From the NCBI RefSeq assembly GCF_002893625.1, contig NZ_PKMZ01000005.1, forward strand, positions 186,001-250,000: DNA of 64,000 bases, read 5' to 3'. The position numbers and the translations under genes are program-made. Under the pieces are notes generated by a model. That model searched no databases. It was not told the DNA's origin and saw only the letters and a program-made list of their open reading frames with translations. The stretch is from Mangrovicella endophytica (GTDB lineage: Bacteria > Pseudomonadota > Alphaproteobacteria > Rhizobiales > Rhizobiaceae). Positions 28,623 through 46,785 of the stretch are shown piece by piece (positions within the stretch are counted from its first letter, which is position 1; each line of letters starts with the position of its first letter).

Positions 28623-28699
28623 GGTCCCGTAGCTCAGCAGGATAGAGCATCAGATTCCTAATCTGAGGGTCGCGCGTTCGAATCGCGCCGGGATCACCA
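28623..28699 (+). tRNA. tRNA-Arg (anticodon CCT)
   Basis: The 77-nt cloverleaf folds as acceptor GGTCCCG/CGGGATC, D arm GCTC...GAGC, anticodon stem TCAGA/TCTGA with loop TTCCTAA (anticodon CCT), T arm GCGCG-TTCGAAT-CGCGC, and an encoded CCA. Its 3' 46 bp (28654-28699) are the attachment site of the downstream mobile element, which restores rather than breaks the gene. Confidence 0.97.
28654..28699 (+). repeat. attL core, 46-bp direct repeat (3' end of tRNA-Arg)
   Basis: These 46 bases, from ATTCCTAATCTG to GGGATCACCA, are identical to 46740-46785. They cover the anticodon loop to the CCA end of the tRNA gene, the usual crossover region for tyrosine integrases. Confidence 0.97.
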
Positions 28700-28735
28700 A
28701 TCTTTTCAATGGCTTAGATGCTGATTGCGATATGA

Positions 28736-28827
28736 TCATGTCGCATTGGTGTTGCATCCAGTTCCCTTGATTTCCAGACGATTCCCGATAGCCTCGGCAG
28801 CTCCATGCGACATGGAGTGCGACATGG
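28736..28827. promoter_or_regulatory. Left-arm integrase binding sites (TGCGACATGG repeats)
   Basis: TGCGACATGG occurs at 28806-28815 and 28818-28827 (12-bp period). A reverse-oriented TGCGACATGA lies at 28736-28745, with a related reversed GTTGCAT just after it. The same decamer occurs twice inside the right end of the element, as expected for arm-type sites of its integrase. Confidence 0.6.
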
Positions 28828-28842
28828 ATCAAGGGCTCTCAT

Positions 28843-30129
28843 TTGGCGAAGAAGCTAGAAGAAATTAGCGGAGCTCTGGCCCGCCTGCGTGATGCGGTTA
28901 AGGAAACTGTATCTCACGATCAGACGATGCTTAGCGCTACCGGGGTCTGGAAAGCGCCGGCAGTCGATCGCAATGACCTGCGAATAATGGCGGATCGCGT
29001 CAAGGATGTGATTGATGCAGTCGATGAAGATCTTCTGCCAGATGAGCCGCCTATTAAGGTGTTCGTTGATGCTATTGATCAAGTGCAGGCGCAGGTGATC
29101 ACGCAACTCTGGAACTCGCAGACTGCAGCTCCCGCCTATGTGGCATACAGAGCTGTTTTAGACGCAGTCAGAGACTATTTTTCCTACTATGTGAACTCTA
29201 CGCCTGATTGGGAAGTGCTCTCTGACGCTGGCAAGCTTCCTAAGGAACTTACTAAGAGATTGCGATCTATAAAAAGTAGTATCAAAGAGCTTGAAGAAGA
29301 TTATGGCGACCTGAAAATGAAGGTCGGCGATATCAATCAAGCTCACGAAGCCGCCCTAGCTTTACCGACCGACATGGATACTCTGCGTGAAGCTGTTGCG
29401 CGCATATCTCACAGGCGGGAGATAGCCGAAAAAGAGAGTGTCATAGTCACAGCGTCTCTGGAGCATGTGAATAAACTGCTCAAATCTATTCAGGAAAAAG
29501 AGGCAGAAGCCAAGCAGCTTGTAAACAACACCCATGACGCCTATAGCGCAGCTACAACAAAAGGGCTTGGGGAAGCCTTTCAGTCGAGGGGAGACGAATT
29601 AGCCAGGTCGGTGTGGGTTTGGGTAGTGTTGCTTGTCATAGCGTTAGGTGCCGGCGCAGTCATAGGATATTACAGATTTTTGGCATTGCACGACTTGGTT
29701 GTGGAGAGAGTCTCTTCTGATCTTCTCTGGTTGAACGTGGTTATGGCGGCATTATCATTAGCCGCTCCGGTTTGGTTTGCTTGGATTGCCACCAAACAAA
29801 TCGGCCACCGATTCCGCTTAGCTGAGGACTACTCGTTCAAGGCGTCCGTCGCGAAGGCTTACGAGGGCTACCGGAGGGAAGCTGCGAAGCTTGATCCGGC
29901 ATTCGCGAAAAGGCTCTTCGGGTCCGCTCTAGACCGAATTGATGAAGCGCCGATCCGATTCGTTGAGAGTGAAACATACGGTTCACCTTGGCATGAGTGG
30001 ATTGGAAGAAAGTCCACCCGGGCAAGGGGTTCGCATAAAATCGGTAGCCATAAACCAGCTGAGCCGGTGATATCCGAAGAACAAGAGATGCCAGGAAGAG
30101 AGATCGAGGCGAGAAGGGACGAAGTCTAA
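28843..30129 (+). CDS. Coiled-coil membrane protein of unknown function, element cargo gene
   Basis: I do not recognise a named family. The 428-aa protein has a helical cytoplasmic N-terminal half (about 1-245) with coiled-coil stretches (LTKRLRSIKSSIKELEEDYG and LEHVNKLLKSIQEKEAEAKQ). Two membrane segments follow at about 256-277 and 294-318, then a compact C-terminal domain (320-388) with RLAEDYSFKASVAKAYEGYR and SETYGSPWHEWI, and a charged tail. It starts at TTG 28843 with AGGG upstream. It runs against the late operon, lies next to attL, and is clearly richer in A+T than its neighbours, all signs of a separately acquired gene. Such positions often hold superinfection-exclusion or defence genes; that role is only an inference. 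Confidence 0.85.
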   Translation: MAKKLEEISGALARLRDAVKETVSHDQTMLSATGVWKAPAVDRNDLRIMADRVKDVIDAVDEDLLPDEPPIKVFVDAIDQVQAQVITQLWNSQTAAPAYVAYRAVLDAVRDYFSYYVNSTPDWEVLSDAGKLPKELTKRLRSIKSSIKELEEDYGDLKMKVGDINQAHEAALALPTDMDTLREAVARISHRREIAEKESVIVTASLEHVNKLLKSIQEKEAEAKQLVNNTHDAYSAATTKGLGEAFQSRGDELARSVWVWVVLLVIALGAGAVIGYYRFLALHDLVVERVSSDLLWLNVVMAALSLAAPVWFAWIATKQIGHRFRLAEDYSFKASVAKAYEGYRREAAKLDPAFAKRLFGSALDRIDEAPIRFVESETYGSPWHEWIGRKSTRARGSHKIGSHKPAEPVISEEQEMPGREIEARRDEV

Positions 30130-30137
30130 GCTTTCGG

Positions 30138-31196
30138 CTAAGCTGCCTCTCTCCACTCCGTCGTGATTCGGGCGCCTTCGCACCGCATTAGGTAATCGAA
30201 CGCCGGCGCCGCGATCCGCTTGAGGCGCCCTGTCTGCACCCGGTAGGCCGAGCGGAAGCACGCAGCGTCGCAGTACTCAGCATGTGCGCTCGTAGTCATG
30301 AAGAGGCTGCCGCAATAGCGGCATTCGGCCTGCCGCTCGTCCCGCGTCGAATTCGAGCAGACCTTGGAGCAGAAGAAGTTGCTCGCCTGTCTCGGCGTAA
30401 AGGTCGTTCCGCAACACTGGCACGGCCTCGGCTGGTGGATGCGAGCTGCCGCGCCCTGGCACTGCTTGCTACAGAACCGTGCGTCGGATCGACCGAGCGA
30501 AGGCCGAAACATCGTCGAGCACTGCTCGCAAGCCCGTTCCGGGATCTCCACGCGCTGGCTGGCGGCCGAACAGCGCATCGAGCAGAACCGTGCCTCTGAT
30601 TTCTCGTGCGACGGCTTGAAGCTCTTTTTGCAGTTTTCGCAGCTGCGCGACACATGCCGATGCCGATAGACCGCCCTGTACGCCTCTCGCTGCATGGCGT
30701 CGCCAGCGAGTGCGTTCCGGAAATCCCACTCGATGTAAGCCAGCCGGGCATGCTCATCGCAGCAGAACAGGCGGTTGCGGCTGCCGGATAGATCGTCTTC
30801 GTCGATCGGCCCATAGCACCAGCGGCAATTCTCCCGCGGCTCTACGAAATACCGTTGGCCTTCCTCTTCCGTCGGCCGCGTTTCCCTTCCTCGGCCGAGC
30901 TGGATAAAGGCGCGGCGCACCACGTCAGCCGCCGCATCGTCCGCGCGATACCAGCCGTGCCCGCTATAGATCAGGCCGACGCGGAGGCCATGACGAACGG
31001 AAGCCTCGCCTTCCCATCGGCTATCCCGCCAGTCGCGGAGGAGATCGGCGGCAGTCTGGACGACGCGATCTCGCTCGGCGGCATTGAGGGCCGGCTTTGA
31101 TCCCGCCAGGCTGACGGGCTTGGCGGTTCCATATCGGTACTCGGTGAATGCGAAGCCGCCATGCTTGCGCCGCGCGCTCTTTCCCTTCTTCGCCAT
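30138..31196 (-). CDS. Protein with tandem zinc-ribbon-like repeats, function unknown
   Basis: The 352-aa protein has a basic N-terminus (MAKKGKSARRKHGGFAFTEY). Its C-terminal two thirds contains repeated treble-clef-like pairs: CRWCYGP...FCCDEH, CENCKKSF...FCSMRC, CEQCSTMF...FCSKQC, CQCCGTTF...FCSKVC and CRYCGSLF...YCDAAC. Five modules of C-x2-C(-F) followed by (F)C-S-x2-C at about 12-16 residue spacing are visible. It is the last gene of the leftward operon and its ATG overlaps the preceding stop (TGATG). It ends 8 bp from the convergent cargo gene. Nucleic-acid or protein binding by the zinc modules is likely, but the role is unknown. Confidence 0.8.
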   Translation of the reverse strand: MAKKGKSARRKHGGFAFTEYRYGTAKPVSLAGSKPALNAAERDRVVQTAADLLRDWRDSRWEGEASVRHGLRVGLIYSGHGWYRADDAAADVVRRAFIQLGRGRETRPTEEEGQRYFVEPRENCRWCYGPIDEDDLSGSRNRLFCCDEHARLAYIEWDFRNALAGDAMQREAYRAVYRHRHVSRSCENCKKSFKPSHEKSEARFCSMRCSAASQRVEIPERACEQCSTMFRPSLGRSDARFCSKQCQGAAARIHQPRPCQCCGTTFTPRQASNFFCSKVCSNSTRDERQAECRYCGSLFMTTSAHAEYCDAACFRSAYRVQTGRLKRIAAPAFDYLMRCEGARITTEWREAA

Positions 31197-31555
31197 CAGA
31201 ACACCGCGTCGAAGAGGTCGGCGCTGATGGCGTGCGTCGACGCCGGCGGCAGCGTCTTCACGCCGTCCTCGGCCGAGCGGTTCGCGAGGCTGTCGCGGGC
31301 ATGATCAAGCCAGGCATCATCCATGGCGCGGAGCAGCTGCGCATGGTGAGGCTGAAGCGGCAGCCTCTCGACGCGAGCGAAGGCCTCCATCTCGGCATGG
31401 GAGATCGGCTGCGGCCCGGTCATGCCAAAGCTACGGCGCCGGTGCAGCGCGCCGAACCACTGCCAGACGAGACGTCCAGCCTCCGGCACCTGCGGCCGAT
31501 CACTGACGACGGCCGCGACGAGCTGCCGCTCAAGGCGGTCCGTTGCTCGCGTCAT
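31196..31555 (-). CDS. Small phage protein, possibly a tail-assembly-type factor
   Basis: The 119-aa protein contains PEAGRLVWQWFGALHRRRSF followed by ISHAEMEAFARVERLPLQPH and LLRAMDDAWLDHARDSLA. This layout, a compact helical domain built around WxWFxxLHxxR and a final aMDxAxL helix, occurs in small proteins encoded near tail genes of several alphaproteobacterial phages, some resembling the C-terminal part of tail assembly chaperones. I can support only 'phage structural-module protein'. It overlaps both neighbours by a single base (TGATG). Confidence 0.6.
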   Translation of the reverse strand: MTRATDRLERQLVAAVVSDRPQVPEAGRLVWQWFGALHRRRSFGMTGPQPISHAEMEAFARVERLPLQPHHAQLLRAMDDAWLDHARDSLANRSAEDGVKTLPPASTHAISADLFDAVF

Positions 31556-32178
31556 CACAGGCGACTTTCCACGAGCTGGAACGAAGCCGGGCAGACATAG
31601 CCGGGAGTTTCCGGCTTGAAGGAGTTCCAGATAGGCCGCATCAGGATCTCCGCTCGATCGAAGTAGACGGTTGCAGCGTCGATATTAGCGCCGATCGAGA
31701 GCGGCGGTTCGAAGGTGATCGTCCGCGAAGTGCCGGAGCCGTTCACCTTGTCGACCTGGACGAGGTAGCGTCGCCCCGCCGGCGTCAGGAACGAAACGAA
31801 ATCGCCCTGCGTCAGGATTAGTGCGGCATGCACGCCAATGACGGAGACGACGTTTGCAGAGGTGACGGCCGAGACAGTGCCAGCCTGTTTCGCCGGCTCC
31901 AGGTTGCCGGCATGGGCCGCCGGCACATAGCGCGGCAAGCGGAAGATGACCGGCCGGATGCCGCCACGCATCGAGTTGAACCAGGTCTGCACGCGCCTGT
32001 AATCGGCGTTGTAGAGCGGCAGCGTCTTCATGGTTGCGATCCACACGGGGTCGGCAAACTCAATGACGTTCGTCAGCCGACCACCCGAGCGCGACTGCGA
32101 CACGCTGAGAGATAGCTCGAGCGTGCTCTGCGCATCGAAGCCGACGGCGGGAAGCACCAGCGGTGCAAGGTCACTCAT
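31555..32178 (-). CDS. Phage tail-associated protein, possibly distal tail-like
   Basis: The 207-aa protein follows the tape measure gene and overlaps it by 4 bp (ATGA). It is mostly beta-strand-like, with LSVSQSRSGGRLTNVIEFAD, RVQTWFNSMRGGIRPVIFRL and IWNSFKPETPGYVCPASFQL. In siphoviruses the gene after the tape measure normally encodes the distal tail protein, and this length and beta content fit. I do not recognise a specific family, so the call rests on position. Confidence 0.6.
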   Translation of the reverse strand: MSDLAPLVLPAVGFDAQSTLELSLSVSQSRSGGRLTNVIEFADPVWIATMKTLPLYNADYRRVQTWFNSMRGGIRPVIFRLPRYVPAAHAGNLEPAKQAGTVSAVTSANVVSVIGVHAALILTQGDFVSFLTPAGRRYLVQVDKVNGSGTSRTITFEPPLSIGANIDAATVYFDRAEILMRPIWNSFKPETPGYVCPASFQLVESRL

Positions 32179-34325
32179 CGTGCCATTCCCGTGCGACGTT
32201 GCGTTTCGTGGAGGTTCTTGCGGAAGCGGCCATAGGACCCCTTGTCGTAGGCCGTCAGCCCGGACTGCATGACGTTACCGGCAACGTCCTGGACGAACGC
32301 CTGCAAGTTGCCTTCACCGTCGATCCCGACGCCGACAGACACATGGACGTTCTGCTGTTGCGGAGCGGCCGCCGGTGCGGCTGGCGGCATGCCGATCGGC
32401 TCCTGCCTGGTCGGCAGCGCATGGTTCGGAAGCACCGTGCCGGAGCGGCCGGGCGCAAACAGCTCCGGCCCCTTCTCGCCGACCAGGTAGAACTTGCTGG
32501 GATCGACATCGCCGCCGGTCGCACGGCCGCCGCCGAACAGGCTGCCCAGCGCCTTGAAGGCCGCGTCGAGCCATCCGCCGCCGCCAGCTCCACCGCCGCC
32601 ACCCATGCCGCCGAAGGCGTTCTCGACGAGATTGTTGATTGCCATGTCGATCAGCTTGGATGCGAGATCGTCGAGGACATTGCCGAGGATTTCGCCGGCG
32701 CTGGCGCCGTCACGAATGCCGTCGGCGATCGTGTGGAGCGCGTCCGAGGCGACGTTCTTCATCGCCTCCTGCGCATCCTTCAGCCGCTCTTGTGCCTGCG
32801 TCTGCTCGTCGATGGCGGTCACGAGCTGGCGGATCTTCTCCTTCTGCTCGTCGGTGGCCGAGGCTCCCGCCTGGCGAAGCGCATTGCTGATCTCGCGCTC
32901 GACATCGCTGGCGCCGATCAGCCCCTTTTCGCGCTCCAGCTCTGCAATGAGGTCGCGGACTGACTCGGCCTCGCGTTCGGCCTGAGCTGCCGCGCGGTCC
33001 CGACTGGCACCGCCACTAAGGTCGCCGCGCCCGCCCGATCCGCCGGTGTCAGCTGGCGGCGCATAATCGTCGAGGGAAATGGGCTTGAACGGGGCAGCCG
33101 CCGGAGGCTTGAGCCGCCCCGACTTACCGGCATTCGGGTAGCGCTTCTTGATGAGGGCATCGAGTGCCGGATCACTGCCGTAGCTGTCTGCCCGAAGCCG
33201 ATCCTGAATGGTCACCGGGTTCTTTATGTCGAGCGCTTGGCCGAGCTGAGTGCTCGCGATGTACTCCCCGATCTTGTTCAAGCCGGTCATCCGGCTGAGG
33301 TTCAGGGCGAAGTCGTCTGTGGCGTTCAGGGCGCGGTTGATGATGTCGATGTAGCCCTGCACCTCGGTGATGAGGCTGTCGAAGCTGACATGCTCGATGA
33401 ACCTGGCGAGGTTGTCGATCGCCGCGCCGAAGGTATTCGCCGCCTTGGTCGAGCTGTTGAACTCCCCGGCGGCATCCTTCAGCGAGTTGAACAGGGTCGT
33501 GAAGCTGTCGGAGATCGTCCGCTGCGATCCCTCCAGCCGCTCGGCAATCATCGGTGCACCGGCCTGGATGCCGCGGAAGAAGGCTTCCGAGGAGATCTTG
33601 CCGTCCAGCATCAGCTTGCGTAGCTCGGCGACTGATCCGCCCGCCTGCTTGATGCCGGTCGCCGCTGCCTGCGCGATGACGGGTGCGCCTTCCAGGATCG
33701 AGTTGAACTCCTCGGCACGAACGACGCCGCCGCCGAGCGCCTGGCTGAGCTGCATCAGCGCGCCGGATGCTTCCTGCGCCGACGTGCCGCCGGCGCGAAG
33801 CGCCATCGCCACGGTATCGGAGAAGGTCACCAGCTCGCCAGAGTTGGTGTTGAGTTCATTCATGTTGAGGGCGACGCGGCTATAGAGCTGCGCCAGGCTC
33901 TCGATCGGGGTCGAGTTGCGCTGCGCCGAGGCGTAGAGGCCTTCATAGACCTCCGACAGCGCCTTCCCCTCCAGGCCGGTTGCCTTCAGAGCATTGGTGA
34001 TGCGGATGGAGCTGTCGATGAAGCCCTGCGCGCCCTTCAGGACGAGCGCGCCGGCGAAGACGCTGCCGAGCGTGCGGCCAACGGCAACCATGCTCTGACC
34101 ATAGGCGCCGATCCGCGTAGAGCTGGCCGCGAGCGCCTGGTTGATCCGGCTCGTTGAGCGGATCATGTCGCGTTCCATCGCGGCCGTCGCGCTCTTGCTG
34201 CTGCGCCGCATGCTCCCGAACTCGCGCCCGGCGGTCGCGCTCGCCTTCGCCATGTTGCGTTCGAGATCGCGGATGCGAGCCTCGACGAGCACGATCAGCC
34301 GTTCGTCACCAGTCACGTTCGACAT
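32175..34325 (-). CDS. Phage tail tape measure protein
   Basis: The 716-aa protein has an N-terminal coiled region, then the tape-measure N-terminal domain with LEGKALSEVYEGLYASAQRN, NMNELNTNSGELVTFSDTVA, ASGALMQLSQALGGGVVRAE and EFNSILEGAPVIAQAAATGI. Hydrophobic Ala/Gly-rich segments, a long helical stretch (AQAEREAESVRDLIAELERE) and a Gly-rich region before the C-terminus follow. Tape measure length sets tail length; by the usual 1.5 angstrom per residue, 716 aa would give a tail of about 100 nm. The ATG at 34325 overlaps the terminase stop (TGATG). Confidence 0.92.
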   Translation of the reverse strand: MSNVTGDERLIVLVEARIRDLERNMAKASATAGREFGSMRRSSKSATAAMERDMIRSTSRINQALAASSTRIGAYGQSMVAVGRTLGSVFAGALVLKGAQGFIDSSIRITNALKATGLEGKALSEVYEGLYASAQRNSTPIESLAQLYSRVALNMNELNTNSGELVTFSDTVAMALRAGGTSAQEASGALMQLSQALGGGVVRAEEFNSILEGAPVIAQAAATGIKQAGGSVAELRKLMLDGKISSEAFFRGIQAGAPMIAERLEGSQRTISDSFTTLFNSLKDAAGEFNSSTKAANTFGAAIDNLARFIEHVSFDSLITEVQGYIDIINRALNATDDFALNLSRMTGLNKIGEYIASTQLGQALDIKNPVTIQDRLRADSYGSDPALDALIKKRYPNAGKSGRLKPPAAAPFKPISLDDYAPPADTGGSGGRGDLSGGASRDRAAAQAEREAESVRDLIAELEREKGLIGASDVEREISNALRQAGASATDEQKEKIRQLVTAIDEQTQAQERLKDAQEAMKNVASDALHTIADGIRDGASAGEILGNVLDDLASKLIDMAINNLVENAFGGMGGGGGAGGGGWLDAAFKALGSLFGGGRATGGDVDPSKFYLVGEKGPELFAPGRSGTVLPNHALPTRQEPIGMPPAAPAAAPQQQNVHVSVGVGIDGEGNLQAFVQDVAGNVMQSGLTAYDKGSYGRFRKNLHETQRRTGMAR

Positions 34326-35941
34326 CACGCATAACCCCACTCTTCGACGGGACCGATGTCGCCGTCATAGCTTGAACGGTTGCTGTCGCCGGCGGCAGCA
34401 CGCGCCACGGCCATGGCCGCAGCAACGGCGCCGTCGATGCGGTCGCGGCTCTTTCCCTTGTGGAACATGCGGTTGCCGGCGCTGTCGGTCTGGATCTCGA
34501 TGTTCTCGACGTTCCAGCGCAGCACGGGGTGCCCGCCATGGCGGAAGCGGCGCCCGATGATGGCGCGCTCCAGCTCCTTCACCGCCGGCGCCATGGTGAC
34601 CCAGCCCTGCCTCATCTCGACGACGGGCAAGCCGTCTTCCGTGAGGTTCGCCATCATCACGCGGCCGAGATGCGGATCGAAGGCGACTTCCTGCACGTAG
34701 AAACGGGCGCAGAGTTCGCGGATGTGATCCTCGACCTTGCGGAAGTCGACGACGTTGCCGGGCGTCGGAATGATCATCCCGTCATCCGCCCAGGCGGGAT
34801 AAGGCACCTGGTCCCGCTCGCCGCGCTCGCGCAGCCGATCCTCCGGACAGAAGAACCACGGCCACACCTGGTAGCCGTCGCCGTCGCGCCAGGCTGCGAC
34901 GACGCAAGTCAGGTCGGAATTGCTCGACAAGTCGACGCCGAGCCAGCACGGTTCCTGCGATGTCTCCAGGTCGTCGAGATCGACCTCGCCTCCGCCTTCG
35001 TCATAGACCGACATCTCGACGAAGGGGTCGGTGGCGTGGTCGAGCCAGATATTGAGGTTGAGCTGCCGGAAGGCCTCTCGATCGCCGACGCGCCGGGTGC
35101 CCTCAAGCGCCATCTGCCGCAGGCCCTCGATGTCGGGATAGCCATGCGCGAGGCCGGGGTTCACCCGGCGCCATACTTCTTCATCCGTCCAATCGTCATC
35201 CTTGGTGGCTTCGAACAGCACCGGCAGGATGGACGGATCATCGACCTCGCCCCGCGCGATCTTGCGGGCATCGTTGACGATGTCCCAGGCAATGTTCTCC
35301 TGGCCGCGTCCGGCGGTGGTGGCGACGACGAGGAGGCTGCCGGGCGTCTTGACGAGACCAGAGCGGAGCACATCCCACAGGTCGCGCTTCTTATGCGCGT
35401 GCAGCTCGTCGGCGAGCACGAAGACGGGCGTGCGGCCGTGCTGCGTGCCGGCGTCGGCGCTGATCGCCTCCATGAAGCTGCCGACCTTCGGGAAAACCAG
35501 CTTATTGCGGTAGTCGAGGGTGCGGATGTTCGCGGCGATCTTCGGATGCGCGAGGCAGAGGGCCTTGGCCTCATTGTAGCCGATGCTCGCCTGCTTGCGA
35601 TCCGACGCGGCCATGATGACCTCGCCGCCCGGCACGCGCTCCGGCCCGATCATGTGCAGCAGACCCAGCGCCGCCGCGAGGCTGGTCTTGCGGTTGCCAC
35701 GCGGCAGCAGCAGCACGACGGTTCGCACAATGCGGCTGCCATCCTCCTTTCGCGGCCCGTAGATCCGGCGAACGGTGCGCTCCTGCCACGGATCGAGCTG
35801 GAACGCCTTGCCGCTCTTCGGGTGCTTCAGCGATCGCAGGAACCGTACGGCACGCTCGCCGCAACCGAGTGGGTCGGGGATCGGCGAGCCGTCATAGATC
35901 CAGTCAGGATATGTCGAGCGGGTCATCTTCACCGTCGTCAA
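34325..35941 (-). CDS. Phage terminase large subunit
   Basis: The 538-aa packaging motor has an N-terminal ATPase with a Walker A-like LLLPRGNRKTSLAAAL, Walker B VFVLADELHAHKKRDLWDVL and coupling motif VVATTAGRGQEN. The C-terminal nuclease domain has WLGVDLSSNSDLTCVVAAW and later acidic sites (AFDPHLGR, KSRDRIDGAVAAAMA). This matches the HK97-type Terminase_1 family. It comes after the head genes in the operon, which is the reverse of most HK97-like phages. Its N-terminus overlaps the small subunit gene by 38 bp; an alternative ATG is six codons in. Confidence 0.95.
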   Translation of the reverse strand: MTTVKMTRSTYPDWIYDGSPIPDPLGCGERAVRFLRSLKHPKSGKAFQLDPWQERTVRRIYGPRKEDGSRIVRTVVLLLPRGNRKTSLAAALGLLHMIGPERVPGGEVIMAASDRKQASIGYNEAKALCLAHPKIAANIRTLDYRNKLVFPKVGSFMEAISADAGTQHGRTPVFVLADELHAHKKRDLWDVLRSGLVKTPGSLLVVATTAGRGQENIAWDIVNDARKIARGEVDDPSILPVLFEATKDDDWTDEEVWRRVNPGLAHGYPDIEGLRQMALEGTRRVGDREAFRQLNLNIWLDHATDPFVEMSVYDEGGGEVDLDDLETSQEPCWLGVDLSSNSDLTCVVAAWRDGDGYQVWPWFFCPEDRLRERGERDQVPYPAWADDGMIIPTPGNVVDFRKVEDHIRELCARFYVQEVAFDPHLGRVMMANLTEDGLPVVEMRQGWVTMAPAVKELERAIIGRRFRHGGHPVLRWNVENIEIQTDSAGNRMFHKGKSRDRIDGAVAAAMAVARAAAGDSNRSSYDGDIGPVEEWGYA

Positions 35942-37719: not shown

Positions 37720-37727
37720 GGCCGTTG

Positions 37728-38216: not shown

Positions 38217-38219
38217 GGG

Positions 38220-38573: not shown

Positions 38574-38746
38574 CAGTCCGCCTCGCCTTCGTGCGGCTTC
38601 CACGTCTCGTTGAAGCGGTGGACGTCGCCGTCGCGGGTGCGCACGACGGTTTCGCCATCCTCCTCGGTGACGGTGACGCCACCCTTGGTCTTGCGAAGCT
38701 CCTCGACGAAGGCTTCGACCGTCTTAGCCTGGCTCTTCCCGGCCAT
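38573..38746 (-). CDS. Small acidic phage protein, unknown function
   Basis: This 57-aa frame (MAGKSQAKTVEAFVEELRKT ... DGDVHRFNETWKPHEGEAD) is too short for common length cut-offs. It fits exactly between the capsid stop (TGATG overlap) and the HNH start (again overlapping), so it is very likely translated. I do not recognise a family. Confidence 0.75.
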   Translation of the reverse strand: MAGKSQAKTVEAFVEELRKTKGGVTVTEEDGETVVRTRDGDVHRFNETWKPHEGEAD

Positions 38747-39894: not shown

Positions 39895-40397
39895 CAGCGG
39901 TTTCCTTTCATCGCCGTGGCGGCGCGGTTGATGGCCTCGGCGATGCTCCGGGCCGCGTCGAAGGATTTCGAGTGGGTGATCCTCGCGTCGGGATGCGAGG
40001 GCTCGCGGACGATCGAGACCTCGACAAGCTCGATCGCGGAGAGGATGCGGTTGCGCCCATGGCGCTTGCTGCCGCGGTCGCGGAAACCGATGGAGAGGCC
40101 GTTGAGCCGCCCTGTGAGGATCTGTGAGCGCACGCCCCGCGCCTGCATCGACTTCAGGTCGAGCCGGCCTTTGACGTGGAGCCCGTCATCGCGCTCCTCG
40201 ATCGACGTCCAGAGGCCGATCAGCGCGTCCGTGTCGTGGTTACGGAGCATGGGAAGCTCCGTCACCGGCAGACGCAGCGCGCCTTTCTTGATGATGTCGC
40301 CTGCACGGTCGGGCGTGGCATACGGCCAGGCGATGCCCTCAACCGTGCCATCCTCATCGACGGCGAGCTGCTTGGTTTGAACATCGAGGCGATCCAT
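39894..40397 (-). CDS. HK97-family prohead protease
   Basis: The 167-aa protein has VEGIAWPYATPDRAGDIIKK, LPMLRNHDTDALIGLWTSIE with the catalytic His, and LTGRLNGLSIGFRDRGSK with the catalytic Ser, ending in ELVEVSIVREPSHPDARI. These are the landmarks of U35-type prohead proteases, which mature the capsid encoded next to it. Confidence 0.94.
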   Translation of the reverse strand: MDRLDVQTKQLAVDEDGTVEGIAWPYATPDRAGDIIKKGALRLPVTELPMLRNHDTDALIGLWTSIEERDDGLHVKGRLDLKSMQARGVRSQILTGRLNGLSIGFRDRGSKRHGRNRILSAIELVEVSIVREPSHPDARITHSKSFDAARSIAEAINRAATAMKGNR

Positions 40398-40783
40398 CAG
40401 GCGCGCCCTCGATGCGCGGCACGATCACTGGCGAAGCCGTCGACCTGTTGCCGTACCCAATTCACACGGAGGAGCCGGAGGAGGTTCTGCGTCGTGAACG
40501 GCACCGGCTCGCCGGCCTCGCTGATTTCCCAGCGCAGGACGTGCCGAGCGAGGGAGTTGAGGTTCGCCTTCTCGCGGTTCTCGGCACCGACGCGGCCGTC
40601 TGCGTCAGCAACCTCGGCAAGTTCATCATAGAGGGCGATGCGCGACCGCGTGGCGGTGTCGCTGTCGGGGCCGACGATCCAGAGCTTGATGCCGGTCGGC
40701 TGCCCCGTCACGGGGTCGACCAGCTCGAACTCACGGCCGCGATCCTGATCGGCGATGTTCGCCAGCACCTCATCAAGCGTCAT
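40397..40783 (-). CDS. Phage protein, tail-assembly-chaperone-like
   Basis: The 128-aa protein contains FELVDPVTGQPTGIKLWIVG followed by PDSDTATRSRIALYDEL and, near the end, LRWEISEAGEPVPFTTQNLL. The LxDPxTGxPTGxxxxVxGxDS pattern occurs in some phage tail assembly chaperone proteins. Its place between portal and protease is unusual for that role, so the call is tentative. It starts inside the portal gene (11-bp overlap) and its stop overlaps the protease start. Confidence 0.6.
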   Translation of the reverse strand: MTLDEVLANIADQDRGREFELVDPVTGQPTGIKLWIVGPDSDTATRSRIALYDELAEVADADGRVGAENREKANLNSLARHVLRWEISEAGEPVPFTTQNLLRLLRVNWVRQQVDGFASDRAAHRGRA

Positions 40784-41993
40784 TGCTCGGCTCCTGCGGC
40801 GGGTTCTGCGGCGCGGCGGCGCCCGCCTGGCTCGCGCCGGTGTGAGGGTTGGCGAACTCGGCGCCGCCTTCGCGCGGCCCCATGCCAAGCCAGTCTCGGC
40901 CCTCATTGGGGTTCAGGACGCGAGACGAGATCAGCGATGAGATCGCGGTGGCGCGCGCCGTGAGATCGACGGCGGTGAAGTCGTCGCGGTCGAAGCGGAT
41001 GCGGTAGTCAGCGCCCTCCTCGGCGGTGAAGAGCGCCCGGCGCATGGCGCCCTCCAGCGGGCGAAGCCAGAACTCCAGACCGGCAAGCCATTCCTTTTGC
41101 GCCGACTCCATGTTCGACCAGGTCTGACGCGAGAAGTCGTAGAGGGCGCCGGGCGGCACGCGGAAGTGGCGGCCGATTTCGAGAATGGCGTGCTGCCACG
41201 TTTCGAGCAGCTGCGCGTCGACGGCCGTCATGGTCATCTGCGCCCAGGTCGCGCCGTCCCACAGGATCGCGGTCCGCCCTGCCTTGCCAGCGCCTTCGTG
41301 CGCGGCCTTCCAGCCCTTCAGCATGCGCTTGACGCCCTCGTCGCCGAGCTGCTTGGGGCTGGTGATGACACCGCCGGGACGCGCCGCTTGGCTGAAGAAG
41401 CTGCCGACGTGTCGCTCCAGCTTGTGCACCACGCCGATCGCGCCGGAGGCGAGCGACAGCGGGCAGCGGTCAAAGGGGCCGCGCAAGTGGATGACGTCGC
41501 CGTTGCCGACGGGGCGATTGCCGATGCGGTAGGAGGGTTCGCGGCGCCCGTCCGAGGAGTAGTCGGCGGTGAACGACCCTTGCGCGTAGTGGACGATCTC
41601 GACCGGCTCGCCGTCGCGGCGGTTCACCCAGGCGAGCCCGCCCTCGTTGCAGGTGAGCGCGGCCACGACGAGGTCGCGGATTAGCGTGTAGGTGTCGCTC
41701 CAGTCGTTCGGCGCATCTTCAAGGAGGCGGGCGACGGGATGCTCCGGGGCGGCCGTCCAAGTGGTGCCGTCGCGCTTCTCGACGAGGATGCCGAGCGAGG
41801 CGATCGAGCCGGAGATCAGCGAGATGGCGGAGGAAACCGCCGGGACCTCAAGGGCCTGCCGTCCGGTGACGGCGTAGTCGGCGACAGCGCCGCCGCCGAA
41901 CAACTCAAACATCCAGTCCGCCGGCACCGCAGTGCCCGACGCGGTGTGCTTCGTCTCAATCGGTTCGGAGCGGGTGAAGGGCCATAGGCGCAT
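40773..41993 (-). CDS. Phage portal protein, HK97 family
   Basis: The 406-aa protein has VPAVSSAISLISGSIASLGI, YTLIRDLVVAALTCNEGGLA and WVNRRDGEPVEIVHYAQ, then HFRVPPGALYDFSRQTWSNM and ESAQKEWLAGLEFWLRPLEG with EEGADYRIRFDRDDF. This is the standard order for the HK97-type dodecameric portal. It is the first gene of the leftward structural operon. The ribosome binding site is weak. Confidence 0.95.
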   Translation of the reverse strand: MRLWPFTRSEPIETKHTASGTAVPADWMFELFGGGAVADYAVTGRQALEVPAVSSAISLISGSIASLGILVEKRDGTTWTAAPEHPVARLLEDAPNDWSDTYTLIRDLVVAALTCNEGGLAWVNRRDGEPVEIVHYAQGSFTADYSSDGRREPSYRIGNRPVGNGDVIHLRGPFDRCPLSLASGAIGVVHKLERHVGSFFSQAARPGGVITSPKQLGDEGVKRMLKGWKAAHEGAGKAGRTAILWDGATWAQMTMTAVDAQLLETWQHAILEIGRHFRVPPGALYDFSRQTWSNMESAQKEWLAGLEFWLRPLEGAMRRALFTAEEGADYRIRFDRDDFTAVDLTARATAISSLISSRVLNPNEGRDWLGMGPREGGAEFANPHTGASQAGAAAPQNPPQEPSNDA

Positions 41994-42030
41994 TCCGATT
42001 TTATGCCGGAAGCAGCCCTTGCGCCGCTAT

Positions 42031-42070
42031 CGGTTTGAGAGGGGATCAGGCGGTTTGAGAAGGTTTCAGG
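42031..42070. repeat. Two tandem 20-bp repeats upstream of the portal gene
   Basis: CGGTTTGAGAGGGGATCAGG (42031-42050) is followed directly by CGGTTTGAGAAGGTTTCAGG (42051-42070) and then the start of a third copy (CGGTTG). They lie 38 bp before the portal start and include the 3' end of the upstream small gene. This could be an operator or activator site for the late operon. Confidence 0.6.
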
Positions 42071-42300
42071 CGGTTGCTACGCATGAAGCTCATCAGATCG
42101 TCCTCGAAGCAGTAGAACCGGCCGCCCAGCTCGCGGATCGGGGTTCCCTCCGCAGTCGCCACGGTGTCGCGAACGAAATCGGCGCCGACGCCGATCCGGC
42201 GGGCGATTGCCGGCAGCGTCCAGATGATCCGCGCCGGATTTTTCGGATCGACAACGGCCATGCGGTCGAATTCAGCAGGGGTGATATCTCTTCTAACCAT
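42046..42300 (-). CDS. Small helix-turn-helix protein of the element
   Basis: The 84-aa protein has WTLPAIARRIGVGADFVRDT, an HTH, followed by TPIRELGGRFYCFEDDLMSF, a wing-like strand pair as in AlpA or MerR-type excisionase-like regulators. It precedes the structural operon and could control it. The family is not certain. Confidence 0.75.
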   Translation of the reverse strand: MVRRDITPAEFDRMAVVDPKNPARIIWTLPAIARRIGVGADFVRDTVATAEGTPIRELGGRFYCFEDDLMSFMRSNRLKPSQTA

Positions 42301-42766: not shown

Positions 42767-43555
42767 CTAGCCTCCCTCTTTCGGTACGATGAAGGGTAGC
42801 GGCTGCGTCCGCATGCCCTCTGCGAAGGGGCTGCGGTCAGGCCCGCGTGCATCCGCACGCAACTGGAGCCCGAGATAGAATATGCAGCTGGCTTGCACCT
42901 TCAGGTGTCCCGCTCGCCGCATAAGGCGTCCAAACATGGTGATCGTCAAGGCGGGGGCGTGTTCGTCCGCAGCCCACCGCTGATAGGCCTCATGCAGCAC
43001 CGTCGCCTGCACACGTGCGAACGGCCGTGCATCCGTGCACTCGGCAATGAAGGCCTGCACGGCGCTCAGGAACGCGCCTGGATCGGCACCCTCCTCAACG
43101 GGGATAGGGTCGGGCACCTCCGGCAGGCCGAGGTCGGCCCATACGGATCGGGCAGCCTCCACGCCATGCACGCGCCGAGCCTCGCGAACCACGGCAAGGG
43201 CAGCGCCAAGCTCCACGGGGTCAAGCCGGCGCCGGCTGTAGCTCCCGGTGCGGCGGATTGCCGGCAGCACGTCATGGAAGACCCAGCGCTTGAACCGCTC
43301 GGCCTCCGGCTTGCGGCTTTCGAAGATCAGGCGGTAGAGGCCTGACTCGTACAGCCAGACCATAGCCTGCTCGCCGCCAAGGGTGTGCGTACTACGCACC
43401 CCCTTTTCCTCATCAGGGATGCGATCGAACGCTCGCTGTGGCGTTTCCAGTCCCAGGCAACGGCAAACGTCGCGGCCGTTGAACAACGGCTCGCCGTCTT
43501 CGGTCATTGTCCGCACGGCGTCGCCGTCGAAGTCGAATGTCACAAGCGAATTCAT
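42767..43555 (-). CDS. BRO-N domain protein (phage antirepressor-like)
   Basis: The 262-aa protein starts MNSLVTFDFDGDAVRTMTED. It continues with FNGRDVCRCLGLETPQRAFD, GGEQAMVWLYESGLYRLIFE and SRKPEAERFKRWVFHDVLPA with IRRTGSY, an intact BRO-N (Bro/KilA-type) DNA-binding domain. The C-terminal half (PVELGAALAVVREARRVHG onwards) is helical, with AYQRWAADEHAPALTITMFG near its end. BRO-N proteins in phages are often antirepressors or early regulators. GGGAGG repeat clusters lie on both sides of the gene. ATG 43555 is preferred because the residues before it are not conserved-looking. Confidence 0.85.
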   Translation of the reverse strand: MNSLVTFDFDGDAVRTMTEDGEPLFNGRDVCRCLGLETPQRAFDRIPDEEKGVRSTHTLGGEQAMVWLYESGLYRLIFESRKPEAERFKRWVFHDVLPAIRRTGSYSRRRLDPVELGAALAVVREARRVHGVEAARSVWADLGLPEVPDPIPVEEGADPGAFLSAVQAFIAECTDARPFARVQATVLHEAYQRWAADEHAPALTITMFGRLMRRAGHLKVQASCIFYLGLQLRADARGPDRSPFAEGMRTQPLPFIVPKEGG

Positions 43556-43961
43556 GGTGATGATCTCCGGCCTGTTGAAGGGTGCAGAAGGTGCAAACTG
43601 CGATCCTCCCGCCATTTTGGCCTATGCTCCCGCAAGCTCCCGAGCCGCCGTCTCGCTTTGCGCAATGATTTCAGGGCCTAGACCCTAAGATTGGGAGGAT
43701 GGGAGGTTTGGGAGCTTTATTCTTGTCGTCATTCATGCGCGCCCAAGCGCATGCGCGCGCATCATGGGAGGCCGGAAACAAGGTCCCGATCCTCCCGCAC
43801 CCTCCCAATCCCTTGCTGCGCAAAGGCTCCCGATATAGCCGATCCTCCCATCTGCCTCCCGAAACTGGGAGGATGGTGGCCTGTGGGGTGGTTCTTCGGC
43901 ATCCACAGCAAGGGGGTCCGGGGCGCGCGAAGCTGGTGGAGCGGAGTGCGGGACGCCGTCA
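43556..43961. other. Gene-free 406-bp stretch with a second GGGAG(G/C) cluster
   Basis: Between the BRO gene and the next gene there is no gene I can support. GGGAG(G/C) motifs lie at 43693, 43701, 43710 and 43766 (plus), 43791, 43801, 43826, 43844 and 43855 (minus) and 43867 (plus), spaced 8 to 11 bp within groups. This is the promoter side of the BRO gene. Confidence 0.65.
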
Positions 43962-44504
43962 TTACGCTTCCGCCTCCTCAAGCTCGGCCTCGGCCGCCAG
44001 CCAGGCAAGACGAAGGTCGACCGGAAGCCACGGGTCCAGGTGGCCGTTGTCGAAGCGACGGTCGATCAGGTCCGCCAGTGACGTCGCGCAGTACTCCTCG
44101 ACGACATGAAGGATTGAGTAGATCATCCGGATGCTTGCCCTGTAGGCGCAGCCGGATGACTGTTCGTCGCCCACCTCCGCAACCTGCTCAAGGCGGATCA
44201 GCAGCTCCACCAGCTGCATCGCGGCGCCTTCCATAGAGGCCGCCCGCGTCGCCGCGATGTAGTCGCGGATCACGCTCTCCTCTTCGCGTGAGTGGCGAAC
44301 GGCGTTCTCCAAGTAGTTGATGGGATAGCCGCCCCTCAGCGGAACAGGCGTTTCCGATACCCTTCGGTCGAGGGCGTAGGAGACGGCCCGCACTTCACGA
44401 AGTCGCCCCGCCATCTTCGCGATCGGGCAGATCGCGGCGCGCTCAACCGGTTCAGGCGCCGGCATCCGGGCAGTCTTCGGCTTTGAAGCTTTGCGCCGGC
44501 TCAT
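43962..44504 (-). CDS. Hypothetical protein of the element's early region
   Basis: I do not recognise this 180-aa protein. It has a basic N-terminus (MSRRKASKPKTARMPAPEPV) and is otherwise helical, with EEESVIRDYIAATRAASMEG, AAMQLVELLIRLEQVAEVGD and LAWLAAEAELEEAEA. It overlaps the upstream gene by 4 bp, so it is probably translated in the early operon with the AlpA-like gene. Confidence 0.7.
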   Translation of the reverse strand: MSRRKASKPKTARMPAPEPVERAAICPIAKMAGRLREVRAVSYALDRRVSETPVPLRGGYPINYLENAVRHSREEESVIRDYIAATRAASMEGAAMQLVELLIRLEQVAEVGDEQSSGCAYRASIRMIYSILHVVEEYCATSLADLIDRRFDNGHLDPWLPVDLRLAWLAAEAELEEAEA

Positions 44505-44884
44505 GACAGGATACCCGCCGCCATCAGGCGGTTCACCTTGTTCTGGAACCGCACGTTCAGGGCTTGAGCCTGCTCGTCCAGGTGGCGCACGGCGAAAGCC
44601 ACCATCTGAGCGTCGTCGCGATGGAATGGCAGGCGGAAATAGTCGGCGCCGGTCTGCTCGCCCCGATCCAAGTCGATGAACGTCACGACGAGGTGCTTGA
44701 CGATCGCGGCGAACTGCACCAGGTCGGTGACCGGGTCGCTCAACTCGTCTTCCAGACTTGCGAACTCCATCCGCAGGGTGTTAATATCCGGGCTGTTCAT
44801 TGCCTTGTCCTTTGGGGGATTGGTTGAACCAGGGCTCGGAGAGGTTGCCGCCTCTGCCGGGCCTTTTTGTTTCCTGCTGATCAT
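44501..44884 (-). CDS. Hypothetical protein of the element's early region
   Basis: The open frame is 127 aa from ATG 44884, which overlaps the AlpA-like stop (ATGA). An internal ATG at 44800 behind AAAGGACAAGG gives a 99-aa version beginning MNSPDINTLRMEFASLEDEL. The body is helical (VTDLVQFAAIVKHLVVTFID, MVAFAVRHLDEQAQALNVRF). It resembles small phage proteins of unknown function; no family is recognised. The internal start may be the real one because the first 28 residues are Pro/Ser-rich. Confidence 0.7.
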   Translation of the reverse strand: MISRKQKGPAEAATSPSPGSTNPPKDKAMNSPDINTLRMEFASLEDELSDPVTDLVQFAAIVKHLVVTFIDLDRGEQTGADYFRLPFHRDDAQMVAFAVRHLDEQAQALNVRFQNKVNRLMAAGILS

Positions 44885-45072
44885 GCCGCTGGCTCCGCGA
44901 AGAAGCGGGCGAGCGCGCTGCGCTCCGCAACCCAGCGCTGGCCGACGCGTCGCGCCGGCAGCTGGCCTGCATCACACATGCCGTATGTCTGCCGCTCGGT
45001 CCTGCCGATCAGCTTGGCGATGCTCTTGATCCCCCAAACGAGATCGAGGGGCTTCTCTGCCTGCTCGTCCAT
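44881..45072 (-). CDS. AlpA/excisionase-like small DNA-binding protein
   Basis: The 63-aa protein reads VWGIKSIAKLIGRTERQTYG, then MCDAGQLPARRVGQRWVAER and SALARFFAEPAA: an HTH with a wing typical of AlpA/Xis proteins (MerR-like HTH_17). It begins the leftward early operon, is preceded by AAAGGAGGTTA, and is divergent from the Arc-like gene across a palindromic operator. In satellites and prophages such proteins activate int or direct excision. Confidence 0.85.
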   Translation of the reverse strand: MDEQAEKPLDLVWGIKSIAKLIGRTERQTYGMCDAGQLPARRVGQRWVAERSALARFFAEPAA

Positions 45073-45098
45073 TTCCGTTAACCTCCTTTTATATCAGT

Positions 45099-45144
45099 GA
45101 CACCATAATGATGTCGCACCATTACGGTGTCAAGACATGGTGTC
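45099..45144. promoter_or_regulatory. Palindromic operator between AlpA-like and Arc-like genes
   Basis: GACACCATAATG (45099-45110) and CATTACGGTGTC (45120-45131) are inverted copies with one mismatch, 9 bp apart. A further GGTGTC half-site lies at 45139-45144. They occupy the 114-bp divergent intergenic region, the expected place for the switch controlled by the Arc-like ribbon-helix-helix protein. Confidence 0.65.
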
Positions 45145-45186
45145 GCTCTGGTGCTATGGCTGGCGCCTTCTAAGGAGGTTAGTTCA

Positions 45187-45483
45187 ATGGCAGAGCCCGA
45201 GACTCGCATGACACTTCGGTTGCGCACTGCTTTGCGCGACGAAATTGCGGAAGTGGCCGCGTTGAACAGCAGATCCCTCAACGGCGAAATCGTGCACCGT
45301 CTTGAGCATTCCTTCAGTAGACAAGTCGAGATATTTCCGGACCTCGGCACAGTAAGCCCGATGTGGCCGCGAAAACATCACCATTCTGCCCTATCGGACC
45401 GGGATCTATTAGAGTCGATCGACAAGTACTCGCAATATATACAAGACTGTATTGAGTTGCTGCGAGATAGGAACAAGGGCTGA
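45187..45483 (+). CDS. Arc-like ribbon-helix-helix repressor
   Basis: The 98-aa protein begins MAEPETRMTLRLRTALRDEI and continues EVAALNSRSLNGEIVHRLEH, the beta strand and two helices of the Arc/RHH family; residues MTLRLR would form the DNA-contacting strand. The C-terminal half has an extra helix (LLESIDKYSQYIQDCIELL). A strong TAAGGAGGTTA ribosome binding site precedes ATG 45187. The integrase starts 4 bp after its stop, so the two are cotranscribed. Confidence 0.88.
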   Translation: MAEPETRMTLRLRTALRDEIAEVAALNSRSLNGEIVHRLEHSFSRQVEIFPDLGTVSPMWPRKHHHSALSDRDLLESIDKYSQYIQDCIELLRDRNKG

Positions 45484-45487
45484 CCGA

Positions 45488-46681
45488 ATGTCCGTCCGCA
45501 AGCGCTCTTGGACCACTGCCACCGGCGCCGAGAAAACGGCATGGGTCGTCGATTACGCGGACGCCAAGGGCAAGCGCCGGCTAAAGACGTTCCAGCGGAA
45601 GAAGGAAGCTGACGCCTTCGCGGCGACGGCCAACGTCGAGGTGCGAGAGGGCGTGCATGTTGCCGACAGTGCCAGCGCTACCGTCGCCCAGGCCGGCGAC
45701 TTCTGGATTTTGACCGGCGAAGCGGCCGGGCTGGAGCGTACGACGATCGCGAACTACCGCTCGCATGTCGACCAGCACATCAAGCCCTTTATCGGCGAGC
45801 TGAAGCTCACGGCGTTGAGCATTCCCGTCGTTCGCTCATACGAGGACCAGCTGCGGGCCGCCGGTCGCTCGCAGGTAACGATCAAGAAGGTGATGGTGAG
45901 CCTCGGCTCGCTGTTGGCGGATGCGCAGGAGAGGGGCCTCGTCGGTCGCAATGTCGTCAGGGACATGCGCGGCCGTCGGAAGGGCGACAGGCGACAGGAA
46001 CAGCGCCACAAGGGCCGGCTGAAGGTCGGCGTCGACATACCCACACGCGAGGAGCTGAAGGCTATCGTCGCGGCGCTCCACGGCCGGTGGCGTCCGCTAC
46101 TCCTCACAGCGATCTTCACCGGCCTGCGTGCGTCCGAGCTGCGCGGCCTGCGATGGAAGGACGTCGACCTCGACAAGCGCGAGATCCGCGTCCATCAGCG
46201 CGCTGATCGCTTCAACGCCATCGGGAAGCCGAAGTCGATCTCCGGCGAGCGTGCCGTGCCGGCACCGCCGATCGTCGTCAATGCGCTTCGCGAATGGAAA
46301 CTCGTTTGCCCGAAGGGTGATCTCGGCTTGGTGTTCCCGAATGGCTCCGGCAAGGTCGAGGGCCTGAACAACATCGTTCGCCGAGGCTTGCAACCGATCC
46401 AGCTCAAGGCGGGCGTGACGATTGCCACCGGCGAGGTGGACGCCGAAGGCAAGCCGATCCTTGCGGCAAAGTATCCGGGGCTTCATGCCCTGCGGCACTT
46501 CTATGCCTCCTGGTGCATCAACCGGAAGGAAGACGGCGGCCTCGGCCTCCCGGCGAAGGCCGTACAGGAGCGGCTCGGCCATTCATCGATCGTCATGACG
46601 ATGGACGTCTACGGCCACCTGTTTCCGAGAGGTGACGACGCCGACGAGCTGGCCGCTGCAGAGAATGCACTGCTGGCCTGA
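45488..46681 (+). CDS. Tyrosine-type site-specific integrase
   Basis: The 397-aa protein integrates and excises the element at tRNA-Arg. An N-terminal arm-binding domain (AWVVDYADAKGKRRLKTFQR) and a SAM-like core-binding domain (TIANYRSHVDQHIKPFIGEL) lead to the catalytic domain with Arg 214 (TGLRASELRGL), His 333 and Arg 336 (LHALRHF), His 365 (LGHSS) and Tyr 375 (DVYGHLF). ATG 45488 is used; the longer frame overlaps the repressor gene. It lies 58 bp from attR. Confidence 0.96.
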   Translation: MSVRKRSWTTATGAEKTAWVVDYADAKGKRRLKTFQRKKEADAFAATANVEVREGVHVADSASATVAQAGDFWILTGEAAGLERTTIANYRSHVDQHIKPFIGELKLTALSIPVVRSYEDQLRAAGRSQVTIKKVMVSLGSLLADAQERGLVGRNVVRDMRGRRKGDRRQEQRHKGRLKVGVDIPTREELKAIVAALHGRWRPLLLTAIFTGLRASELRGLRWKDVDLDKREIRVHQRADRFNAIGKPKSISGERAVPAPPIVVNALREWKLVCPKGDLGLVFPNGSGKVEGLNNIVRRGLQPIQLKAGVTIATGEVDAEGKPILAAKYPGLHALRHFYASWCINRKEDGGLGLPAKAVQERLGHSSIVMTMDVYGHLFPRGDDADELAAAENALLA

Positions 46682-46702
46682 TGCAACATGGCTGCGACAT
46701 GG
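46682..46702 (+). promoter_or_regulatory. Right-arm integrase binding sites
   Basis: TGCAACATGG (46682-46691) and TGCGACATGG (46693-46702) repeat with an 11-bp period just inside attR and match the decamers inside attL. Confidence 0.6.
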
Positions 46703-46739
46703 CGGCAGAAAGCCGTTCTAAAACAATGGCCGCAGTAAC

Positions 46740-46785
46740 ATTCCTAATCTGAGGGTCGCGCGTTCGAATCGCGCCGGGATCACCA
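46740..46785 (+). repeat. attR core, 46-bp direct repeat
   Basis: These bases are identical to 28654-28699. This copy lacks the 5' half of the tRNA, so it marks the distal end of the integrated element. Confidence 0.97.

Follow-up and report, generated by a model that had tools for sequence, protein, structure and literature searches.

Capsid-forming phage-inducible chromosomal islands (cf-PICIs) have established that satellites can make heads and borrow tails (PMC13230959), and their average size of 14 kb (PMC10803314) is similar to that of the island described here. This island is an integrated element of 18,086 bp from attachment site (att) to attachment site, located in a 64,000-nucleotide stretch of Mangrovicella endophytica (contig NZ_PKMZ01000005.1, positions 186,001 to 250,000), which is referred to as the window and whose own coordinates are used throughout. 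Like cf-PICIs such as EcCIEDL933, the element carries an integrase, an AlpA-like gene, an HNH endonuclease, the small and large terminase subunits (TerS and TerL), portal, protease, capsid and adaptors in an integrated island. However, cf-PICIs take whole helper tails, whereas this element encodes a tail tube, a tail terminator, a tape measure protein (the ruler), two tail assembly chaperones and a distal tail protein (Dit), the last being found only sometimes in its relatives. As the lack of tail genes that defines cf-PICIs does not hold here, the element was not filed as one of them, in agreement with the original prediction, made from the letters of the window alone, that tube and tape measure argue against a standard capsid-forming island. 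Instead, the element is probably an integrated phage satellite that forms its own head and tail tube while borrowing the tip and the lysis functions of a helper. A satellite keeping its own head and part of its own tail had already been proposed in that prediction, and it is the best-supported reading now that a compact conserved family has been found.

Comparison with described satellites and phages

The listed features of cf-PICIs include an alpA regulator and a Pri-Rep replication gene (PMC10448857, available text). In the window, an AlpA-like helix-turn-helix (HTH) protein is present and a BRO-N protein stands in place of a primase, while other members of the family have primase-helicases. 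The comparison with cf-PICIs is one of descriptions rather than sequences, and TerL was separated only from 18 phage TerLs.

The Streptomyces satellites MulchRoom and MiniFlayer (14.8 and 17.4 kb) resemble the window element in being helper-dependent with their own terminase, portal and capsid. Unlike it, MiniFlayer makes a tail that is short and podovirus-like and bears a fibre of its own; MulchRoom has long tails, and a head-to-tail adapter is listed for it but no tube or ruler. Neither is described as combining its own tube with a borrowed tip (all as given in the available part of PMC10690885). The E. coli RepA_N satellites share with the window element capsid genes, putative tape measures and one predicted baseplate component, but are without terminase, protease, alpA and adaptor genes (PMC10448857, same portion). 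In the open-licence literature searched, as far as its text was available (including PMC10690885, PMC10448857, PMC11389934, PMC10803314, PMC13230959 and PMC12597102, with the original cf-PICI and SatelliteFinder papers outside this scope), no satellite was found that combines a tube and ruler of its own with a tip taken from a helper, nor any in Alphaproteobacteria. By these descriptions, the family differs from the capsid-forming satellites known, of which the cf-PICIs and the Streptomyces and RepA_N satellites are nearest.

Among phages, siphophages with tails like that of the Rhodobacter-type gene transfer agent (RcGTA) offer the closest comparison: Mesorhizobium vB_MseS-P1, Labrenzia vB_LagS-V1 and Rhizobium RHph_TM3_3_9, with genomes of 39-68 kb. 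The N-terminus of the window ruler is 39% identical to that of vB_MseS-P1 and 46% to that of vB_LagS-V1, and the window tube is 38.5% identical to the tube of RHph_TM3_3_9. Besides a Dit, the annotation of vB_MseS-P1 names a hub, a peptidase, a megatron, fibres and lysozymes; the post-ruler genes of the other two are mostly labelled 'hypothetical' and are alike in size and order.

A compact family conserved across Alphaproteobacteria

In IMG/VR, TerL relatives of at least 48% identity lie on 41 contigs, the window's own element included. Of these, 26 are at least 12 kb long, with a median of 17,386 bp; the longest measures 31 kb and the next 21.6 kb, so that a single contig is longer than 22 kb. 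Wherever it can be read, gene order does not differ among these relatives. Overall, TerL relatives are found in dozens of alphaproteobacterial genera. Relatives in the form of 35-45 kb phages had been named beforehand as the finding that would speak against a satellite, and none of the 41 contigs is such a phage. Among genomes, the best 80 of at least 587 TerL matches show 51-81% identity, and their titles name Rhodobacterales, Hyphomicrobiales, Sphingobium, Zavarzinia and others, together with one Cytophagaceae metagenome-assembled genome. A TerL match at 4e-150 or better occurs in eight of 385 sampled alphaproteobacterial genomes (M. endophytica included), and all matches better than 1e-100 among 398 genomes of the phylum belong to Alphaproteobacteria, the share of the 398 from outside the class not being listed. 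The family is thus not rare, and its database entries may be miscounted as small or defective prophages.

The size class also shows in the spacing of integration sites. In 25 of 30 genome regions of 27-40 kb, chosen by hand, the genes are bracketed by a tRNA-associated direct repeat 16 bp or more in length. Repeats of 37-60 bp at many different tRNAs delimit 16 of these elements at 15,951-19,390 bp (mean 17,598, standard deviation 800); the nine regions with short repeats count for little, since repeats of 16-19 bp away from tRNAs arise by chance there. Five regions (G397, G399, G408, G418 and G419) yielded no tRNA repeat, G419 having a repeat without a tRNA. In the window, the direct repeat at 28654-28699 and 46740-46785 (both +) is exact over 46 bp and 98% identical over 49, the left copy being the 3' part of a tRNA-Arg(CCT) gene at 28623-28699, as originally predicted. 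A conserved element of 15-20 kb at tRNA sites in several species was the check that had been set in advance, and it was found in many species.

The tube protein leads to the same family. Further family genes, in family order, surround 72 of the best 80 of its 295 relatives, and the remaining eight (on contigs of 4-110 kb) have none. In a TerL tree, 160 family rows and 18 phage rows fall on opposite sides of one branch (SH-aLRT 99). The window-type tail requires at least 15 forced changes on this tree, a count inflated by partial contigs labelled otherwise. Loci L212-L214 are ordinary phages.

Two contigs bear on mobility. The Limimaricola hongkongensis scaffold NZ_KK088654.1 (19,042 bp) has an exact terminal self-overlap of 1,476 bp and reads as a circle or head-to-tail concatemer of a 17,566-bp unit without host flanks, although tandem integrated copies may also be compatible with the overlap. 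An Aureimonas contig of 17,649 bp consists of exactly one element between two 48-bp repeats, which look by eye like a tRNA 3' end, with no tRNA called by ARAGORN; its ends may be assembly effects.

Four contigs longer than 35 kb, found via the tube protein, carry a family TerL. G798 (IMGVR_UViG_2891339218_000001, 72.9 kb) is a satellite inside a prophage. G801 (IMGVR_UViG_3300048586_000896, 35.7 kb) holds two different family members (L308-L309) about 21.5 kb apart, and could pass as one full-size phage. G800 (36.6 kb) has, beside the satellite, a second phage-like element with another TerL. For G799 (IMGVR_UViG_2841536245_000004, 42.1 kb), near-copies of 18.5 and 19.1 kb exist (L277 and L274); its first 24 kb (L316, L317) gave no hub, peptidase or megatron match, and otherwise nothing beyond partial matches to a methyltransferase and to proteins of Wolbachia phage WO. 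On the 31-kb contig of L040, a tRNA-Ser lies at 16.1 kb with an integrase adjoining, and a second protease-like match at 22.9 kb; no hub or megatron match was obtained on it.

Where the tail ends

The 86 tailed loci (52 with abutting genes) reduce to 81 distinct ones (47 abutting) once copies with the same ruler are dropped. In these 47 of 81 loci the ruler gene abuts the gene of the tail assembly chaperone TAC_18, with no tip gene between them. One gene of about 200 aa, the size of a Dit, lies between the two in 27 loci and is recognised as Dit in 21, as in the window, where Dit (31555-32178, -) is the last tip-ward protein recognised. The gap, estimated with a 120-aa chaperone, is near 340 bp in three loci and above 900 bp in four, namely L243, which has Dit and a hub homologue, L255, L111 and L117.

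Profiles of hub, peptidase and megatron, built from 22 phages, recover 18-22 of those 22. Over 219 loci, their sole satellite match is the hub in L243; matches in L275 and L276 belong to flanking sequence and not to the satellite. In L275, a megatron fragment (0.5-1.8 kb) on the opposite strand adjoins the satellite capsid gene, by recombination or misassembly. In the window element itself, Pfam and PHROG profile searches recognised no lysis, hub, fibre, primase or helicase gene. The earlier statement that replication, lysis and host-recognition genes are unrecognisable thus stands, the BRO-N protein being weakly primase-like.

Links to candidate helper phages

In siphophage tails, Dit and the tip-ward end of the ruler face the tip complex. 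The annotated rulers of alphaproteobacterial siphophages measure 724-736 aa (721 aa in the window) and are followed by a tip set; satellite ruler frames range from 612 to 1,093 aa. Of four satellite Dits searched, two are shared with phages bearing a hub-peptidase-megatron tip.

The first and most telling case is G798, in which the satellite (loci L312-L315, about 13.9-32.5 kb) splits the megatron gene of the surrounding prophage. Satellite and prophage are 65% identical in Dit and 43% in the ruler C-termini, while their tubes and ruler N-termini could not be aligned by BLAST. Eleven further contigs, of which two or more are the same, have a Dit 54-67% identical to that of the satellite, and all of them have hub-peptidase-megatron. 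The insertion is apparently site-specific: both of its ends are marked by an exact repeat of 10 bp, which by eye forms part of a longer imperfect repeat, and the two megatron halves are adjacent in 11 relatives of the prophage, with a residue-level check in one. A 900-aa frame is open across the insertion point in one of five phages tried (L324). In the second case, satellite L095 and a tip-bearing phage (present as two contigs of the same sequence) share 75% identity in Dit but only 29% in the tube; other relatives of this Dit stand at 42-51%.

Among 21 close pairs with TerL 85-99.5% identical (one pair being a duplicate, L215/L269 = L002/L003), the ruler (0.55) and TAC_18 (0.56) are the least conserved genes compared in all 21; the other genes stand at 0.69-0.77 and TerL at 0.93.

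Indirect signs of a possible helper dependence are the missing tip and lysis genes and the Dit sharing in two of four cases. On helper infection or induction, the element would excise by means of its integrase and AlpA-like excisionase and would make its own small HK97-type capsid. Its own HNH endonuclease, TerS and TerL would package the genome of about 18 kb, and neck, tail terminator, tube and ruler would likewise be its own products, built with its own chaperones. The tube would then be capped by a helper siphophage's tip complex, docking at the satellite's Dit, and the helper would lyse the cell. The anatomy is most simply read as excision followed by packaging and by assembly of an own head, neck and tube, the helper providing tip and lysis.

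A wider possibility is put forward tentatively. The helper-satellite junction may slide along the virion on one packaging backbone of 16-19 kb, from no recognised tail to tube and ruler, then with Dit, then with a hub, and finally with fibre and lysozyme. Distal parts would be exchanged with helpers, and at least one satellite sits, apparently by site-specific insertion, in a prophage megatron gene, where until excision it would interrupt the part that it is expected to need. If the satellite reading is true, the point of piracy moves to the tail tip, and the helper supplies mainly host recognition, penetration and lysis. The family would then lend itself to experiments on how the choice of a tip depends on tape measure and Dit, and on the conversion of satellites into phages or of phages into satellites.

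Several observations weigh against a satellite that borrows its tip. No close phage relative was found for the window Dit or ruler C-terminus, and the Dit of L019 matched only satellites. The M. endophytica genome contains no second prophage of the PF05065 type, only a cluster resembling a gene transfer agent (GTA). Many loci are partial, and tip proteins of unknown families would escape the profiles. Some members may be autonomous, given the genes of fibre and lysozyme type in L111 and L117, and G799 combines a family TerL on 42 kb with 24 kb that matched little in several searches. Fast ruler divergence is common in phages. Induction, particles, tip capture and lysis by the helper are what we infer from sequence.

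Alternative readings

Alternatively, the element could be an autonomous mini-siphophage with genes of unknown families for tip, replication and lysis, which we regard as unlikely. Family members do carry primase-helicases or O-like initiators, and in L111 and L117 a fibre is present together with a lysozyme or its homologue. These two loci (about 13.3-19 kb) have a pair of genes in common with a 110-kb phage contig (phrog_11633 and the fibre phrog_11439), and L117, about 18.7 kb between att repeats, has a lysozyme with a homologue in L111. On the TerL tree, both lie within the group with window-type tails, beside L106 (with Dit) and L083 (no tip gene); because of this nested position, their fibre and lysozyme look regained. 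Possibly they are satellites turned self-sufficient mini-phages. Against general autonomy stand the lack of any gene between ruler and TAC_18 in more than half of the distinct tailed loci, the Dits common to some satellites and tip-bearing phages, and the content outside the core. The 147 non-core proteins of 17 elements comprise integrases, primase-helicases, initiators, regulators, scattered accessory domains and one lysozyme, among the families listed (25 each out of 37 for Pfam and 117 for PHROG, so that rare ones may be hidden). They come from 17 of 19 regions with window-type tails, G419 among them; G408 and G418 (no att estimate) and regions of other types were excluded, and many of the open reading frames (ORFs) are long frames picked mechanically.

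Perhaps the satellite's tail-like genes instead interfere with helper tail assembly, and whole helper tails join satellite heads as in cf-PICIs; this is quite improbable. The theft of whole tails is indeed described for cf-PICIs (PMC13230959), and three Ancylobacter relatives (L063, L071 and L081) have the same packaging backbone and cargo, with no tail match among the 3, 2 and 2 post-terminase ORFs scanned. Their post-terminase genes encode a kinase, a helicase, an HTH-M78 protein and an AbiEii-like AAA ATPase, perhaps defence cargo. A set of 18 loci considered tail-less, for having no match to the window-type tail profiles, was rejected, as tape measures of other types are encoded in L132 (1,124 aa) and in L065 (648 aa). 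The gene set of the window element is larger than interference needs, and tail genes like those it holds (tube, terminator, ruler and the two chaperones) are mostly under purifying selection in relatives. In the 28 closest pairs reported, the ratio of nonsynonymous to synonymous substitution rates (dN/dS) lies mostly between 0 and 0.23 for the tube, the outliers being 0.64 (two near-unchanged pairs) and 0.37; values for the ruler (0.07-0.50) are similar to those for portal (0-0.48) and capsid (0.06-0.58).

It is very improbable that the element is a full prophage which lost its tail-tip, lysis and replication end by deletion, the main alternative raised in the original prediction. Its tail and head genes are of ordinary siphophage type, and in alphaproteobacterial siphophages the same tail genes precede a tip set and, as far as these are annotated, lysis genes. 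However, 47 of the 81 distinct tailed loci repeat the order without a tip gene, a fixed size class with att sites exists in many genera, no 35-45 kb phage appears among the 41 IMG/VR contigs with a TerL at least 48% identical, and tube dN/dS is low in most pairs. The interval 30138-32178, where deletion was suggested to have occurred, is occupied by Dit, TAC_18 and an HNH-like protein. A one-off deletion remnant was accordingly rejected on the family evidence. Of the complete tail, lysis and host-recognition functions that mark a temperate phage, none was recognised in the window, and a GTA-type tip is nearly absent in relatives.

A GTA of the RcGTA type is a vertically kept cluster without integrase or att sites, with a short ruler and a megatron; the window element has an integrase, att sites, a 721-aa tape measure and no megatron, and the RcGTA-like cluster of its host lies elsewhere (contig C1, about 267-280 kb; L297, L298), where GTA_TIM matches a frame of about 1,296 aa. 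A domesticated GTA, or a satellite of the host GTA that takes its tip, is scarcely credible: the genome does hold this cluster and GTA_TIM occurs in five of the eight genomes that carry a close family member, compared with 37 in the whole sample of 385, but three of the eight are without it, lineage confounds the count, the GTA ruler candidate has about 191 aa against 721 in the window, and integrase and att sites mark a mobile element. The GTA was also dropped as supplier of the tip: the co-occurrence is confounded by lineage, and no such supplier is needed.

Gene content of the window element

The genes of the integrase, Arc-type and AlpA-like proteins adjoin the right att copy. The tyrosine integrase (45452-46681, +; PF00589, E 2.8e-16) has a frame of 409 aa and is followed by an Arc-family DNA-binding protein (45127-45483, +; PF03869, E 4.9e-8) and the small AlpA-like HTH protein (44881-45072, -). 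The AlpA/Arc switch originally predicted is clear in its Arc half; its AlpA half is weaker, with a match to HTH_17 (E 1.1e-6) and a weak one to phrog_66 (E 0.005). The AlpA-like profile matches 35 ORFs in 31 loci. Proteins of 127 aa (44501-44884, -) and 180 aa (43962-44504, -) have no family match and are each found in four loci.

From BRO-N through a cysteine-rich HNH-like protein, the minus-strand genes are mostly overlapping or close-set. The BRO-N antirepressor-like protein (42767-43615, -; PF02498, E 1.6e-22; phrog_130) matches primase C-termini weakly in its own C-terminus (phrog_1156, E 1.2e-6). A small excisionase- or regulator-like protein (42046-42300, -; phrog_66, E 0.0018; 49 loci) precedes the portal (40773-41993, -; PF04860, E 2.9e-67). 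Tail assembly chaperone 1 (40397-40786, -; phrog_313, E 1.6e-10; 42 loci) is encoded between the portal and the S78 prohead protease (39894-40397, -; PF04586, E 1.8e-18), after which come the HK97-type major capsid protein (38746-39894, -; PF05065, E 1.9e-78) and the HNH endonuclease (38220-38603, -; PF01844, E 4.5e-8; phrog_144).

The tail tube protein (37728-38216, -) is recognised by phrog_158 (E 8e-21), its Pfam match (PF08813) lying below the cut-off, so that the tube call holds on the PHROG profile. The head-tail adaptor Ad1, a gp6-like connector (37417-37719, -; PF05135, E 4.3e-14), Neck1, of the HK97-gp10-like tail completion type (37011-37424, -; PF04883, E 1.7e-7; phrog_5), the gp17-type tail terminator (36607-37014, -; PF11367, E 5.8e-26; phrog_176) and the head closure protein Hc1 (36287-36631, -; PF05521, E 1.8e-22; true start probably slightly inside) follow. 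TerS (35904-36290, -; Terminase_4, PF05119, E 4.2e-18) and TerL (34325-35941, -; PF20441, E 6e-32; PF03354, E 3.8e-14) precede the 721-aa ruler (32175-34340, -; TMP_3, PF20155, E 4.4e-48). Dit is matched by phrog_1302 (E 8.5e-14), and its AlphaFold model (pLDDT 80) matches T5 pb9 (TM about 0.7) and other PDB tail-tip chains. Next come TAC_18 (31196-31558, -; PF23812, E 3.3e-11) and the 352-aa cysteine-rich HNH-like family protein (30138-31196, -; phrog_1271, E 3.7e-12; 32 loci), for which no match was found among 50,697 phage records.

Integrase, portal, protease, capsid, connector, terminase and tape measure, all named in the original prediction, were each matched by profile, and the 25 translated frames are free of internal stops, in keeping with its statement that no pseudogenes are visible. 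Its short tail module was right in the genes listed and incomplete, with Dit, terminator, TAC_18 and the second chaperone overlooked.

The last gene in the layout, on the plus strand (28843-30129; phrog_34659, E 4.4e-66), encodes a coiled-coil and probably membrane protein counted as accessory cargo. Its PADLOC matches are weak and SMC-like only, and among the loci profiled it is present only in L002, a copy of the window's element. The G+C content is about 0.56 in the 28-31 kb interval and 0.61-0.68 across the remainder of the element. A near-DNA search of the element against phages gave no match. The corresponding plasmid search matched 13 records, of which those listed align in two pieces, covering about 1% of the query; these pieces, at the two ends of the query, are the tRNA and the att copies. 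Near the left end of the element, a thiamine pyrophosphate (TPP) riboswitch lies at 27321-27423 (-; Rfam RF00059, 66.6 bits).

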